This document shows, in pieces, positions 34,863 to 40,543 of a stretch of 40,543 nt of DNA. This stretch comes from Bacteroidia bacterium. Lineage in GTDB: Bacteria > Bacteroidota > Bacteroidia > Bacteroidales > JAPLDU01. The stretch's first letter is position 1, and every line of letters starts with the position of its first letter. The stretch is from NCBI GenBank assembly GCA_026391255.1, contig JAPLDU010000020.1, positions 1 to 40,543 of the forward strand. Direction: 5' to 3'. The notes under the pieces were generated by a model. That model had not been told where the DNA came from and did no database searches. It saw only the letters and a program-made list of their open reading frames with translations. The position numbers and the translations under genes were made by a program.

Positions 34863-35488
34863 GCACCTCTCCCTTCTGTTGAGTTATATGCCAATCGCTA
34901 AAGATGCGAATGACACAATCCTAAGAACTCCTTACTTCATTCCTGGTAATTAAGCAGATATTAATAAATATTCGCAGATTATAAGTGAGTAATTTGACTC
35001 TGTGGTTTTCTGTGCCTTCTATGTGATACTCTGTGTTACAATTAATTACACAGAGGAAGTCAGGAGTAACCACTGAGTTACACAGATAATTCACGACATT
35101 ATATTTTACGACGGGTCAGGGGTTCTGATCCTATAGAACCAAGCTGTGAAAATTTCAAACCTTAACATTAATGAATATAAGCAAATATCATACGCTGTTG
35201 ATATTTAGATATTTGAATAAATGTACATGCTTCCTGCACGCTGTTATTTAAGAATATGATTAATTTTTATACAGGCGCATAATAACTTTACACTATTCAT
35301 ATATAATAGAAATACAGCCACTTATATTTGATTGAAAATATAGTGTTTAATAATTATACACTATAATTGCATAAAACTTTAATGAATTTAATTATAATGC
35401 ATTGATATACTTGATTTTATAATCAACCATTTCGCTTTGGCACTATTGTTGGGTCATTTATGTAAAGAACAAACAAAGCCTGTTAAAC
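34863..35488. other. Long gene-free leader before the redox operon
   Basis: About 620 bases without a supported gene. It holds nested inverted repeats at 34997-35079 (separate entry) and a TATATTTG word at 35323-35330 that could be a -7 box, without a clear -33. No riboswitch or tRNA was recognised. Confidence 0.4.
34997..35079. repeat. Nested inverted repeats of the CTCTGTGG/ACACAGAG type
   Basis: The inner pair CTCTGTGT (35029-35036) and ACACAGAG (35048-35055) is perfect. The outer pair CTCTGTGGTT (about 34999-35008) and AACCACTGAG (about 35069-35078) has one mismatch. The wording resembles the arms around the GxxExxY gene (CCACAAAGG, CCTTTGTGG), but no gene is enclosed. Confidence 0.5.
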
Positions 35489-35509: not shown

Positions 35510-37192
35510 ATGAAAAACACAATCATATTAATCTTAGGTTTATTAGCGCTGAATAACACTTATATTTCCGGCCAGGTAACTGAAGGTAAAAACAAGACTC
35601 CACTGGAAGGTTCAATAAATATTATGAGTTCTCCTGATCTTTATAATATTACGACAAAGTGGGCCGGGGAATTCTTCAAATTAAATCCTTACTTAAAAAT
35701 CAAGGTGATTAATCTTAAGGACGTAAATTCTGCCAGGTTATCAGAGGCTGATAAATATATAAAAATTATTCCTGATAATTATCTTGCTGACTTTAATGCA
35801 GAGCAAGTGAGGAAATTAACCCTTGGACGTGATGTTATTGTACCGGTCTTTAATTCGGAAAATCCATACTTAACTGAGATTTATCAAAAGGGAATATCAC
35901 CTGAAAATTTAGCCCTGTCACTTACCCTCGATGGAAAGCAGAATTGGGGAACCTTGCTGAAAAACAATCAGAATACTCCTGTTCATTATTATATGATCAG
36001 CGATAAATCAGTAATATCAAGTGTTACTAACTTTCTGAATGCAGGTAAAACTGCGCTTGCAGGGATCATTGTTCAAAATGAGGAAGAAATGACAGGAGAC
36101 ATTCTGAAGGATCCTTATGCTATCGGTTTCTGCAGACTGACAAACATTGTTGATGTCACAAATCAGAACATAATGGATAAGTTCAGATTGTTGCCAATTG
36201 ACAGGAATGGAAACGGCAGGTTGGATTACATGGAAAAAATTTATGATAATGTGAATACCTTTTCCAGGGGAGTATGGATCGGAAAATATCCCAAAACCTT
36301 ATTCCATAATATTTATTCTGTATCTTCCTCACAACAGGCCAATGAAAATGAAACAGCATTTTTAAAATGGATTCTGACAGATGGACAGCAATATTTGAGC
36401 ACAAATGGTTTTTACAATCTTGCATATAGCGAAAAACAAGTTCAGTTGGACAATTTAAATGATTTTCTGATTTCAGCAAACAAGCCTCAGGAAGCAGATT
36501 CCAAAGTGATATTTTTCCTGTTGTTTCTCTTAGGAATTGTTATTACCGGATTTATCGTGAACAGCGTATATCAGCATATAACTTATGTTAAGGACCTGGC
36601 TCCGGTTTCAGTAAATCAGGTGTTTTTTAATGCAGATTCCGTAGTTGTCCCCAAAGGACTTTTTTTTGATGTGACCCATACATGGGCATTCATGGATGAA
36701 ACCGGTGTAGTAAAACTGGGTATTGACGATTTTCTGCAGCATGTCACGGGAACTCTTACACGTGTCGAAATGAAAAAACCAGGTGAAAGTATAAAAAAAG
36801 GGGAACAGCTGTGCACCCTTGTTCATAAAGGCAAACAGTTAAATATTTATGCCCCGGTTTCAGGAACCATTATTGAAAAAAACGAAGCACTTACAGGAGA
36901 TTCATCTTTGATAAATGATTCTCCATATGCCGACGGATGGGTGTATAAGATAGAGCCGGTAAACTGGCCAAGAGAGATGATGTTTTTAATTATGGCCGAA
37001 AAATATAAGGACTGGCTGAAAAACGAATTCAAACGGCTGAAGGATTTCCTGTCAGATTATATAAAGTACGACACCTCGTTTGCTCATGTCATACTACAGG
37101 ATGGCGGAGAAATTATTGACAATACTCTTGCAGATTTTGCTCCAGAAGTATGGGAAGATTTTCAGAATAACTTTATTAACAAAGCTCGTTGA
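35510..37192 (+). CDS. Periplasmic-binding-like / GcvH-like transmembrane fusion protein
   Basis: A 560-residue protein; the ATG at 35510 gives a clean signal peptide (MKNTIILILGLLALNNTYIS), and 35489 is an alternative start. Residues 33-320 resemble a PstS-like substrate-binding domain (GSINIMSSPDLYNITTKWAGEFF). Inside it lies a complete EF-hand loop, DRNGNGRLDYME (231-242). One membrane helix (about 332-352) leads to a GcvH-like domain (378-485; THTWAFMDETGVVKLGIDDF, YAPVSGTIIEKNEAL, SPYADGWVYKI) and a C-terminal extension. The usual ESVKA lipoylation context is replaced by HKGKQL (439-444). By topology the binding domain faces the periplasm and the GcvH-like domain the cytoplasm. First gene of a four-gene operon. 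Function unknown. Confidence 0.75.
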   Translation: MKNTIILILGLLALNNTYISGQVTEGKNKTPLEGSINIMSSPDLYNITTKWAGEFFKLNPYLKIKVINLKDVNSARLSEADKYIKIIPDNYLADFNAEQVRKLTLGRDVIVPVFNSENPYLTEIYQKGISPENLALSLTLDGKQNWGTLLKNNQNTPVHYYMISDKSVISSVTNFLNAGKTALAGIIVQNEEEMTGDILKDPYAIGFCRLTNIVDVTNQNIMDKFRLLPIDRNGNGRLDYMEKIYDNVNTFSRGVWIGKYPKTLFHNIYSVSSSQQANENETAFLKWILTDGQQYLSTNGFYNLAYSEKQVQLDNLNDFLISANKPQEADSKVIFFLLFLLGIVITGFIVNSVYQHITYVKDLAPVSVNQVFFNADSVVVPKGLFFDVTHTWAFMDETGVVKLGIDDFLQHVTGTLTRVEMKKPGESIKKGEQLCTLVHKGKQLNIYAPVSGTIIEKNEALTGDSSLINDSPYADGWVYKIEPVNWPREMMFLIMAEKYKDWLKNEFKRLKDFLSDYIKYDTSFAHVILQDGGEIIDNTLADFAPEVWEDFQNNFINKAR

Positions 37193-37241
37193 CCTTTATT
37201 TATTCAACCCGTAGTTTGATTAGTACTCAATTCACAAAATA

Positions 37242-38120
37242 ATGAGCTTAGATCGCAGAAAGTTTTTTAAGGTGCTTGGGGTCACCGGAATTACCCTTGC
37301 AATAGGTAAAGAAGCTGGTGCAAATCAGGCAATAGTAAGTGAAACTGAATTTTCCGGGGTATTATTTGATGCTGTACGTTGCAAGGGTTGTCATGGTTGC
37401 GAATACGATTGTGCAGATGCTAATAATTTACCTGATCCGTCGGAGAGTATCCTTAAAGCAGAAAAGACAGGGATGAAACGAAAAACAGATGAATCAAGAC
37501 GAACCGTTGTGAATGGTTATCAGACTTCAAAAGGGGAAGTTTTTTTAAAGACCCAGTGTATGCATTGCAATGAACCCGCCTGTGCTGCTGCATGTCTTAC
37601 TCAGGCAATGTATAAAACAAAAGAAGGTCCTGTAACCTGGAGAACTGAAAAATGCATGGGATGCCGTTATTGCATGGTCTCCTGTCCGTTTGATATCCCA
37701 AAATTCGAATACCACAGTCCAAACCCTAAAATTCAGAAGTGTACAATGTGCTACGACCGGCTTAAGACAGGCGAATTACCGGCTTGTGTGGCAAACTGTC
37801 CGAATGATGCCCTGATGTTCGGTAAACGCAGGGAACTGATTAAAGAAGCACGAAAAAGAATTTACGAAAAACCTGAAATATACGTGGATCAGATTTATGG
37901 TGAACATGAAGCAGGTGGAACGGACTGGTTATATCTTTCACCGGTACCGTTTAATGAACTGTTATTAAAGACCACAATCCAGAATTCATCTTATCCTCAG
38001 TTAACAAAAGGATTTCTTTATAGTGTACCATCAGTATTTGTTCTGGTTCCTGCGCTCTTATTAGGCATTCAGAAAGCAACGGCAAATATTCATAAAATTA
38101 GTGAATCTGATGATGAGTAA
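37242..38120 (+). CDS. Tat-exported 4Fe-4S ferredoxin subunit, HybA-like
   Basis: A 292-residue protein. The twin-arginine signal DRRKFFKVLGVTGITLAIG points to folded export. Sixteen Cys form four cluster motifs: C47/50/53/57 (CKGCHGCEYDC), C106/109/114/118, C138/141/144/148 (CMGCRYCMVSCPFDIPKF) and C167/170/182/186. A C-terminal membrane helix (about 257-275) anchors it, as in HybA. It would pass electrons in the periplasm between a partner and the quinone-reactive subunit encoded next. The gene lies 49 bases after the fusion gene and overlaps the next. No hydrogenase, formate dehydrogenase or reductase catalytic subunit is nearby, so the redox partner is unknown. Confidence 0.88.
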   Translation: MSLDRRKFFKVLGVTGITLAIGKEAGANQAIVSETEFSGVLFDAVRCKGCHGCEYDCADANNLPDPSESILKAEKTGMKRKTDESRRTVVNGYQTSKGEVFLKTQCMHCNEPACAAACLTQAMYKTKEGPVTWRTEKCMGCRYCMVSCPFDIPKFEYHSPNPKIQKCTMCYDRLKTGELPACVANCPNDALMFGKRRELIKEARKRIYEKPEIYVDQIYGEHEAGGTDWLYLSPVPFNELLLKTTIQNSSYPQLTKGFLYSVPSVFVLVPALLLGIQKATANIHKISESDDE

Positions 38121-39342
38121 TATTTATTCTGTGAAAGTGGATCATGGTGTTACTACCACCTGGAAGTTTTTCCTGAGTGAAATTAAACCAAAGGGAAAAT
38201 TACTGACCCCATTTAATATCATTTCCATTCCGATAATATTGCTGGGACTGGGAATTATTGTGATCCGGTTCTGGAAGGGACTGGGTTCGGTAACTAACCT
38301 CACTCAGGAAGTTCCATGGGGTTTGTGGATCGGTTTTGATGTTGTCACGGGAGTTGCTTTCGCAGGAGGGGCTTATGTAATTTGTTTCATGGTCTATATA
38401 CTTAACATGCAAAAGTATCATTCCATTGTCAGAATAACAGTTTTGAACGGCTTCCTTGCATACGTTTTCTATGCAGGCGCATTACTTTTAGATCTTGGAC
38501 GTCCCTGGAATGTAATTAACCCCATCATAGGTAATAATTTCGGAACCAGTTCGGTACTTTTCCTGGTTGCATGGCATTTCCTTCTTTATATGATCGCACA
38601 GTTGATTGAGTTCTCTCCCGCCATTGCAGAATGGCTGGGAGCCCGGCGCGCACATAAAATACTTTCAGGCATGACAATTGCCGCTGTTATTTTCGGTATC
38701 ACATTATCCATACTTCACCAATCGGGATTAGGTGCACTTTTCCTGATGGCAAAAGAAAAAATTCACCCGCTCTGGTATTCGGAGTTTATTCCTTTGTTGT
38801 TTCTGGTTTCCAGTATTTTTGCCGGGCTTTCTATGATCATATTTGAAGGATCGATCAGCCATAAAGTGTTTTTCAGCCAGATAAGTGAAAAAAATCACCT
38901 GGCACATAAGAGTATTATGCATGGCTTGTCAAAAATATGTACAGGAACCTTGTTTGCTTATTTTTTCCTCCAATTGCTCGTTTTTATTCACGGGAAGCAC
39001 TGGAATATGATAAACTCCCCTTATGGCTATTGGTTTCTGTTCGAAATGACAGGCTTTGTTCTTATGCCTATGTTCTTGTATTTCATCGGTTACAGAAAAA
39101 ATAATATTTTAATGATCAGAATTGCAGCCATCATCACCATGCTCGGAGTAATCCTGAACAGACTGAATGTAACTGTAATAGGCTTCAGGTGGTACGATCA
39201 TATCAGATATGTTCCGTCATGGATGGAAATTGTGGTTACTTTGGCAGTAATATTTACCGAAATATGGGTATTCAGGTGGGTCATTAACCGTATGCCGGTA
39301 TTAAGGGAATCACCAATATGGGTAAAAAAGATTAATAATTAA
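38110..39342 (+). CDS. NrfD/HybB-like quinone-interacting membrane subunit
   Basis: A 410-residue integral membrane protein with about ten helices, starting at the ATG at 38110 (MMSNIYSVK); a GTG at 38101 is less likely. Conserved-looking features are VPWGLWIGFDVVTGVAFAGGAYV, YHSIVRITVLNGFLAYVFYAGALLLDLGRPWN and LHQSGLGALFLMAKEKIHPLWYSEFIPLLF, typical of HybB/NrfD (polysulfide reductase C) proteins that exchange electrons with menaquinone without heme. It overlaps the ferredoxin gene by 11 bases, showing translational coupling. With that ferredoxin it forms the minimal HybAB-type module. Confidence 0.88.
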   Translation: MMSNIYSVKVDHGVTTTWKFFLSEIKPKGKLLTPFNIISIPIILLGLGIIVIRFWKGLGSVTNLTQEVPWGLWIGFDVVTGVAFAGGAYVICFMVYILNMQKYHSIVRITVLNGFLAYVFYAGALLLDLGRPWNVINPIIGNNFGTSSVLFLVAWHFLLYMIAQLIEFSPAIAEWLGARRAHKILSGMTIAAVIFGITLSILHQSGLGALFLMAKEKIHPLWYSEFIPLLFLVSSIFAGLSMIIFEGSISHKVFFSQISEKNHLAHKSIMHGLSKICTGTLFAYFFLQLLVFIHGKHWNMINSPYGYWFLFEMTGFVLMPMFLYFIGYRKNNILMIRIAAIITMLGVILNRLNVTVIGFRWYDHIRYVPSWMEIVVTLAVIFTEIWVFRWVINRMPVLRESPIWVKKINN

Positions 39343-39385
39343 CCAGCATTCACCCATCTAAAGGTGATTGCACAAAATAAAAAAA

Positions 39386-40105
39386 ATGGATGGATTTACC
39401 TACACAAATATTTTTGAGACAAAAGGTTTCGAATACCTTATCATTATTGCATTTCTTGCATTATTGGTACCCTTTTGGTTTTTCCTGAACAGGAAGGGGA
39501 AAATGACCAAACAAATTCAAAAAGCTTTTGGAGTACTTTCAAGGGATATTTTAAAGATCCCGCAAGGTATATTTTACAGCCCAAATCATACCTGGGTTCA
39601 TTTAGGAAAATGCGGTGCAGCAGAGGTCGGACTGGATGATCTCCTGCTTCATCTGATAGGAGATGTGAAATTAATAAAACTTAAAAACCAGGGTGATGCC
39701 ATCAATAAAGGAGAGTTAATGGCAGAAATTGCACAAAAGGGAAAGGTTCTCAGGATATTTTCTCCTTTATCCGGTAAAATTGTGACAACTAATCCATTTA
39801 TCCTTGAAAGCCCCGGAATTATGAATGATGACCCATATGGGAAAGGTTGGATTTATCAAATCAAGCCAAATAACTGGGCAGAAGAGACGAATTCATACTA
39901 CCTGGCCGAAGATGCAACAAAGTGGACAGGTTGGGAGTTGAACAGAATTAAAGATTTTCTGGCTGTTTCAATTCAAAAATATGCCCCCGGGACTTCAGGA
40001 ATCAGTTTGCAGGAAGGAGGTGAAATTTGCGACCATGCTCTTAAGGAATTGCAAAATGAAGTATGGCAGGATTTTCAAAAAGAATTTTTAAATCCTATCC
40101 AATGA
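39386..40105 (+). CDS. Membrane-anchored GcvH-like protein
   Basis: A 239-residue protein starting at ATG 39386 (MDGFTYTNIFETKG); the TTG at 39368 is an unlikely longer start. One helix (about 15-35) is followed by basic residues (NRKGKMTK), so the rest should be cytoplasmic. The GcvH-like domain (about 58-165) has NHTWVHLGKCGAAEVGLDDLL, FSPLSGKIV and DPYGKGWIYQIKP. The lipoylation site region reads QKGKVL (117-122). The C-terminal extension ends LQEGGEICDHALKELQNEVWQDFQKEF, closely matching that of the fusion protein (LQDGGEIIDNTLADFAPEVWEDF), so the two arose by duplication. Last gene of the operon. Function unknown; a redox or acyl-carrier role is only a guess. Confidence 0.75.
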   Translation: MDGFTYTNIFETKGFEYLIIIAFLALLVPFWFFLNRKGKMTKQIQKAFGVLSRDILKIPQGIFYSPNHTWVHLGKCGAAEVGLDDLLLHLIGDVKLIKLKNQGDAINKGELMAEIAQKGKVLRIFSPLSGKIVTTNPFILESPGIMNDDPYGKGWIYQIKPNNWAEETNSYYLAEDATKWTGWELNRIKDFLAVSIQKYAPGTSGISLQEGGEICDHALKELQNEVWQDFQKEFLNPIQ

Positions 40106-40118
40106 AGAGATTAATATG

Positions 40119-40145
40119 AAACCGGTTTACATCACCGGTTTTTTT
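40119..40145 (+). terminator. Rho-independent terminator of the redox operon
   Basis: AAACCGGT (40119-40126) pairs with ACCGGTTT (40134-40141), with a 7-base loop and a T-run to 40145. It lies 14 bases after the last stop and fixes the operon end. Confidence 0.85.
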
Positions 40146-40543
40146 GTAATTTTGCAGGAAATGAAAGAAGATTTGAATTTTTACCATATGATTTTCTGTG
40201 TTTTTTTCTTCTTACTTTTTGTCGTCACAAAAAGTAAGCAAAAAAGACTAACGTCCGCCACGGCGTTCGCCAAGGCGAAGAACTCGTTCCGTCTCGGTAT
40301 TCGGCAAGCTCAGACACCATCCTCGACTTCACTCAAACAGCAATTCGTTGATATGGAATTTTATATTTTATGCTTCGCACTCAATTTATTATGAAAAACA
40401 TATAAAAAATTGACTTTCCCCATTTTTATTTTACATAAATGTGACCATGAAAGCCCTGTGCGTTGGACATCCACGAATGGTGTGTCCGCCGTGGCGGATA
40501 CAACATGCCATTTCGACAGGCTCAATGGCCGGTTGCCAAAAGA
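40146..40543. repeat. Intergenic repeat region at the window end, no gene
   Basis: It opens with a perfect 12-bp hairpin, CTTACTTTTTGT (40211-40222) with ACAAAAAGTAAG (40227-40238). GC-rich short palindromes follow (TTCGCC-AA-GGCGAA near 40267; TCCGCC-GT-GGCGGA near 40485) and the word TTCGACAGGCTCAATGG. An open frame of 92 codons crosses it, but its content looks non-coding. The words recur in many Bacteroidetes intergenic regions as far as I recall. Confidence 0.5.

Follow-up and report, generated by a model that had tools for sequence, protein, structure and literature searches.

A conserved Bacteroidota gene cassette that joins an HmcBC-type quinone module to its own two-component system

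What does a ferredoxin and quinone-subunit pair of hydrogenase type serve when no hydrogenase stands beside it? The question is raised by four genes at the end of contig JAPLDU010000020.1 (assembly GCA_026391255.1) from a Bacteroidia bacterium of the order Bacteroidales. The stretch that was analysed, referred to below as the window, is this complete contig (C77, 40543 bp) of a 161-contig genome. An earlier note on the letters alone described the genes as a closed four-gene operon and an orphan HybAB-type module coupled to two GcvH-like membrane proteins. We find that the four genes open a conserved unit of seven genes. This unit probably represents a bacterial redox-sensing system that has not been described before, rather than an orphaned part of a hydrogenase. 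The self-regulated cassette joins a respiratory quinone module to a two-component system of its own and is carried by uncultured Bacteroidales as well as by other classes of the phylum.

Seven genes across two contigs

The four genes of the window have the strand and order given in the earlier note:

35510-37192 (+), gene 1: PstS-like extracytoplasmic domain, one transmembrane (TM) segment (residues about 327-357) and a cytoplasmic GcvH-like domain without the lipoyl lysine (Pfam GCV_H, 2.4e-26)
37242-38120 (+), gene 2: HmcB/HybA-type ferredoxin with a Tat signal, four [4Fe-4S] cysteine sets and a C-tail anchor (TM 256-281)
38110-39342 (+), gene 3: HmcC/HybB/NrfD-type quinone-interacting membrane subunit with about ten TM segments (Pfam NrfD, 9e-15)
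39386-40105 (+), gene 4: N-terminal TM segment and a cytoplasmic GcvH-like domain without the lipoyl lysine (Pfam GCV_H, 1.4e-23)

Alignment of relatives places the start of gene 4 at the ATG at 39386, and the TTG at 39368 chosen by the open reading frame (ORF) caller is not favoured. Family matches agree with the earlier assignment of gene 2 as a Tat-exported ferredoxin with four [4Fe-4S] motifs and of gene 3 as an NrfD-type subunit. The HybAB-type label is apt as a statement of similarity, but the nearest named families are HmcB and HmcC. Gene 2 scored 335 bits against HmcB (NF045715, cut-off 420) and 214 bits against HybA (PRK10882, cut-off 263), and gene 3 scored 393 bits against HmcC (NF045714, cut-off 550) and 251 bits against HybB; HmcB and HmcC are thus the top-scoring families, above HybA and HybB, yet under every equivalog cut-off. 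Genes 1 and 4 are referred to below as the fusion and GcvH2.

A scan of GTDB contigs with the single sequence of gene 1 found no relatives; a scan with an alignment of the fusions found 236, and 80 loci were kept, all of them Bacteroidota-named and all from metagenome-assembled genomes. Gene order was counted in the 55 loci with at least 8.5 kb of downstream sequence. All seven genes stand in the same order in 46 of these, and the individual genes are present in 53 (kinase), 52 (NtrC), 52 (archaemetzincin, M54), 50 (HmcC), 50 (GcvH2) and 49 (HmcB). The description as an orphan does not hold, the constant neighbours being a heme-type histidine kinase, an NtrC/sigma-54 activator and an archaemetzincin. 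Ten genomes of this bacterial order, not counting the window's own, have a good HmcC match. Eight of them hold the cassette or as much of it as their contigs contain; in one of the eight the GcvH-like gene stands separately and has no PstS domain. The remaining two carry HmcBC in another context, with formate dehydrogenase shown in one: the pair at locus L074 adjoins a formate dehydrogenase alpha subunit and was set aside as a different system, and that at L075 is alike by gene sizes. Versions of the pair with a catalytic partner therefore also exist in this order.

Contig C77 stops 438 nt past gene 4, and the kinase, NtrC and archaemetzincin genes are missing from the window because the contig ends. 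They are found on contig C145 (locus L082) of the same genome, whose right end overlaps that of the window:

40491-40543 (+), 53-nt contig-end overlap, matching the right end of C145 exactly in reverse complement
L082:4778-6448 (-), histidine kinase gene
L082:3425-4768 (-), NtrC-type sigma-54 activator gene
L082:2740-3291 (-), archaemetzincin gene
40118-40142 (+), terminator-like hairpin between gene 4 and the kinase gene, -10.6 kcal/mol

The 53-mer is present in the genome at two sites, the ends of C77 and C145, and nowhere else. Joined in this way, the contigs give the order fusion, HmcB, HmcC, GcvH2, kinase, NtrC, archaemetzincin, as in the relatives; the overlap and this synteny suggest that C77 and C145 adjoin. 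The operon is not closed after four genes, since the window is a whole contig and the cassette runs on into C145. The hairpin that the earlier note took for a terminator is present, but the operon does not end there, and terminator-like sites as a class are not above chance (5 in the scanned stretch compared with 4.0 ± 2.0 in shuffles). An operon at the edge of a contig may look orphaned merely because of the assembly. Close to the end of C77 lies an inverted 12-nt repeat, TCCGCCACGGCG (40254-40265) and CGCCGTGGCGGA (40487-40498), which may be a piece of a repeated element at which the assembly broke.

Promoter, operator and signalling genes

The DNA before gene 1 had been described as gene-free, which is correct (822 nt without genes), but it is not empty:

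35342-35362 (+), palindromic operator (upstream activating sequence) AGTGTTTAATAATTATACACT, starting 96 nt upstream of the -24 element
35438-35452 (+), sigma-54 (-24/-12) promoter TGGCACTATTGTTGG, score 12

A sigma-54 promoter of the form TTTGGCAYN5TTGA precedes gene 1 with a score of at least 11 in 72 of 77 loci, compared with 2.7% of mononucleotide shuffles. All 76 promoters tested have, within the 250 nt before them, a 21-bp palindrome of the class AGTGTTGAATnATTCAACACT at a match of at least 70%, compared with 8 of 76 shuffled sequences; the seed was taken from the same loci, so the level of matching is partly circular, which does not apply to its fixed position or to its absence elsewhere. 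The palindrome mostly starts at -95/-96 relative to the -24 element, or at about -184, and the operator of the window agrees with it at 17 of 20 positions.

Eight genomes were searched for the palindrome with at most two mismatches. In the window genome there are two sites in total, the second of which (on contig C24) lies within coding sequence and has no sigma-54 promoter. Four others (G387, G393, G302 and G317) have the site at their own promoter only, the additional sites of G400 are unconvincing and lack sigma-54 promoters, and two of the eight carriers have no site at this stringency. The strict sigma-54 pattern by itself occurs 8 times in the window genome compared with 7 for the reversed control, which is no excess. 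Genome-wide, the operator marks essentially this operon only, so the NtrC regulator looks dedicated to its own cassette.

The NtrC orthologues at L036 and L071 have receiver, AAA+ sigma-54 interaction and Fis-type helix-turn-helix domains (Pfam), and the C145 copy carries GAFTGA in its sequence. The histidine kinase on C145 has periplasmic CXXCH and CX4CHAH heme motifs, which are kept in 66/66 and 62/66 kinases, respectively. A model of modest quality for its sensor region (predicted local distance difference test, pLDDT, 65) resembles Cache domains, with WalK and the heme sensor GSU0935 among the matches and GSU0935 near the top. It has in common with the heme-c Cache sensors (sCache_heme, GSU0582/GSU0935; PMC12889525) a periplasmic Cache-like CXXCH sensor fused to a histidine kinase. 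It differs in a second CX4CHxH site, in a further nearly invariant Cys, and in that none of 16 kinase sensors matched PF11845, the defining model of the nitric oxide (NO)-sensing family, at E<=1. The archaemetzincin has an HExGH-x5-HC zinc motif and a C-terminal CxxC in 56/56 sequences, the L071 copy scoring 159.6 bits with NF033823 (cut-off 145), and it tracks NtrC and the kinase in both presence and co-variation.

Redox coupling and its alternatives

On balance, and with modest confidence, we read the cassette as a self-regulated redox-sensing two-component system built on the HmcBC quinone module. The periplasmic Fe-S protein HmcB and the quinone-site protein HmcC would exchange electrons with the menaquinone pool, and the quinone-linked electron path suggested in the earlier note is supported to this extent. 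The periplasmic heme domain of the kinase would read the redox state of HmcBC, with the PstS-like domain as a co-receptor, and the kinase would phosphorylate the NtrC protein, which would bind the operator and drive sigma-54 transcription of the cassette in a loop that may be positive or homeostatic. The GcvH-like domains may serve as non-lipoylated docking modules on the cytoplasmic side of the membrane, one of them belonging with HmcBC and one with the kinase branch. If the coupling is true, the system would read the redox state of quinone directly and non-lipoylated GcvH-like domains would have a signalling role. The operator sequence and the promoter make the model directly testable.

The pattern of gene loss bears on how the parts belong together. 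Six loci lack exactly HmcB, HmcC and GcvH2; in these the promoter is kept and the fusion adjoins the kinase(-NtrC-archaemetzincin), one contig ending in the kinase. The fusion therefore goes with the kinase, and GcvH2 with HmcBC. Co-variation was determined as the partial rank correlation of pairwise distances in 47 loci, with the 5-95% range taken from 60% subsamples. The kinase core and NtrC, known partners that serve as a positive control, gave 0.47, and the kinase sensor and HmcB gave 0.41, second only to that pair. HmcC-GcvH2 and NtrC-archaemetzincin (0.36 each) and the PstS domain with the kinase sensor (0.27) follow, and all of these reported pairs (0.47-0.27) are positive across the subsample range. 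These values lend weak support to a passage of electrons, or of a conformational signal, from HmcB to the heme of the kinase.

Several points weigh against such a coupling. The HmcBC-kinase link is suggested only by gene order and co-variation, and HmcB-HmcC, which must touch, scores 0.22, distance co-variation being weak evidence. The kinase persists without HmcBC in its neighbourhood in the six loci, the GcvH2-kinase gap in the window genome is 791 nt and contains the hairpin (the median in relatives is 180), and the archaemetzincin has no place in the mechanism. It is also possible that the heme-Cache sensor of the kinase responds to NO or some other ligand without an intermediary, HmcBC being no more than an output under its control.

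This last point is the core of the alternative that survives best, which we regard as possible and as the less probable of the two. The kinase would be an independent NO, redox or ligand sensor of the heme-Cache type, a gas or ligand being sensed directly at its heme rather than via HmcB. HmcBC-GcvH2 would be its respiratory output, a small quinone oxidoreductase made on signal whose electrons pass to or from periplasmic partners. According to a preprint, heme-c Cache domains of signalling proteins bind NO, and those fused to signalling modules behave as NO sensors (PMC12889525). The resemblance of the kinase sensor model to GSU0935 and Cache domains, an operator that appears to control this operon alone and the six loci with a kinase branch and no HmcBC all fit such a sensor. 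They are set against the rank of the kinase sensor-HmcB pair in co-variation, the failure of the sensor domain to match PF11845, and the position of HmcBC, flanked by two GcvH-like proteins of which one is kept where the kinase stands without HmcBC.

The domains for which a docking role is proposed have the GCV_H fold (Pfam; template-modelling score, TM-score, of about 0.9 to H-protein structures), but in 81/81 fusions the lipoyl-lysine column is Gly and an invariant Lys is shifted by one, giving Gly-Lys at the hairpin. The earlier description as H-protein-like is therefore right for the fold and wrong for the chemistry, because the lipoylation lysine is absent. Relative to the glycine cleavage H-protein (GcvH), with which they share the fold, the domains are membrane-anchored, lack the lipoyl lysine and have an extra C-terminal helical tail with a QDGG motif. 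That they are nonetheless working H-proteins or lipoate carriers feeding dihydrolipoyl electrons into HmcBC is highly unlikely: the fold is clear and the Gly-Lys invariant, but the Lys is displaced in the fusions, and its shifted position is not kept in the wider family, where several members have R, N or H.

The structure model of the fusion is of modest confidence (pLDDT 68, predicted TM-score 0.44), and domain-level structural matches alone were therefore used; the cytoplasmic GcvH-like and extracytoplasmic binding-protein domains proposed in the earlier note are supported. The PstS-like domain carries an EF-hand-like loop, DRNGNGRLDYME, at residues 231-242 of gene 1 (about 36200-36235), and this DxNGNGxxDxxE loop is kept both in the fusions and in stand-alone Bacteroidota PstS proteins. 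The PstS family fold could point to a phosphate-sensing or uptake system, with phosphate bound by this domain and a PhoR-like kinase. We give that reading equally little credence, since the fusions have lost the phosphate-loop motifs of stand-alone PstS (RSDxxGAAE and GGAGKG), the former of which is kept by the window genome's own stand-alone PstS (RSDACGAAE), and the cassette contains no Pst transporter.

As the earlier note observed, the operon has no hydrogenase catalytic partner, and its homologues do not stand beside hydrogenase genes in the 80 neighbourhoods compared. The 1.34 Mb around these loci contain no motif pair of a [NiFe] large subunit, and the adjacent [NiFe] small and large subunits of hydrogenase-2 (HybOABC) are absent here; one molybdopterin enzyme lies several kb away, in one of the 80 loci. 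As for a hydrogenase elsewhere in the genome, PF00374 genes occur in some carriers, but two of eight (97-98% complete) have none, and the window genome has a contig-edge fragment only. A split or orphan HybAB-type module with its catalytic subunits elsewhere, which the HybA/HybB similarity of genes 2 and 3 and these PF00374 genes might suggest, is thus already largely refuted and the least credible explanation of all.

Known systems and wider relatives

Among named families, those nearest to genes 2 and 3 belong to the Desulfovibrio Hmc complex (HmcABCDEF); complex and cassette both place a ferredoxin with a C-tail before a quinone subunit of HybB type (PMC10924467). Neither the 16-heme cytochrome HmcA nor HmcE or HmcF is a constant partner in the operon and the 80 neighbourhoods, where ORFs with at least three CXXCH motifs occur in three places only; GcvH-like proteins, kinase, NtrC and archaemetzincin are present instead. 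Stand-alone pairs of a C-tail ferredoxin and a HybB-like quinol oxidase with no hydrogenase link have already been described (PMC10924467). An orphan HybAB module by itself is therefore no novelty. The described pairs have in common with the cassette a tandem ferredoxin-NrfD pair free of hydrogenase, but they are accompanied by octaheme or other cytochrome c and their flanking genes are not conserved, whereas here there is a fixed regulatory set. Searches of openly licensed papers found no description of the fixed combination of HmcBC, GcvH-like proteins, heme kinase, dedicated sigma-54 activator and archaemetzincin.

In the HoxBC-HoxJ-HoxA system of Ralstonia eutropha, the reader of the redox complex is a histidine kinase, whose target is an activator that binds DNA (PMC6978683). 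The same logic of redox protein complex, kinase and activator is suggested here by gene order and co-variation. The cassette differs in having no hydrogenase, a membrane/periplasmic redox module, a regulator limited to its own operon and heme motifs in the kinase, and it appears to be an analogue of that system, not a member.

In other classes of the phylum the order is GcvH-like, HmcB, HmcC, GcvH-like, heme kinase, NtrC, archaemetzincin, and the PstS domain is absent. Two further genomes have HmcB, HmcC, a 13-heme cytochrome and a heme kinase, then receiver-GcvH proteins. In these, receiver domains are fused to GcvH-like domains at L052:11037-13047 and L054:9742-11780, and 14- to 19-heme cytochromes also adjoin at the L054 locus. 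A broader proposal, which we hold only tentatively, is that of a new class of redox sensor, in which HmcBC would relay electrons, or a change of conformation, from the membrane quinone pool to the heme in the periplasmic part of the kinase, and non-lipoylated GcvH-like domains, including the receiver-GcvH fusions, would be an unrecognised cytoplasmic signalling adaptor.

Near the archaemetzincin end of C145, L082:2-634 (-) and L082:1562-2551 (-) resemble, by eye, a molybdate/tungstate-type binding protein and permease, which did not recur as constant neighbours of the cassette. The HmcB-like ferredoxins of the wider family (L035-L052) lack the Tat signal and keep the C-tail anchor. The counterpart of gene 4 at L035-L051 has an N-terminal four-Cys motif, CxWMxAGxxxYKLCDxxxxCxxC, in place of the TM anchor. 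Two tandem heme kinases replace the single one in the cassettes at L087, L102, L104, L108 and L123.

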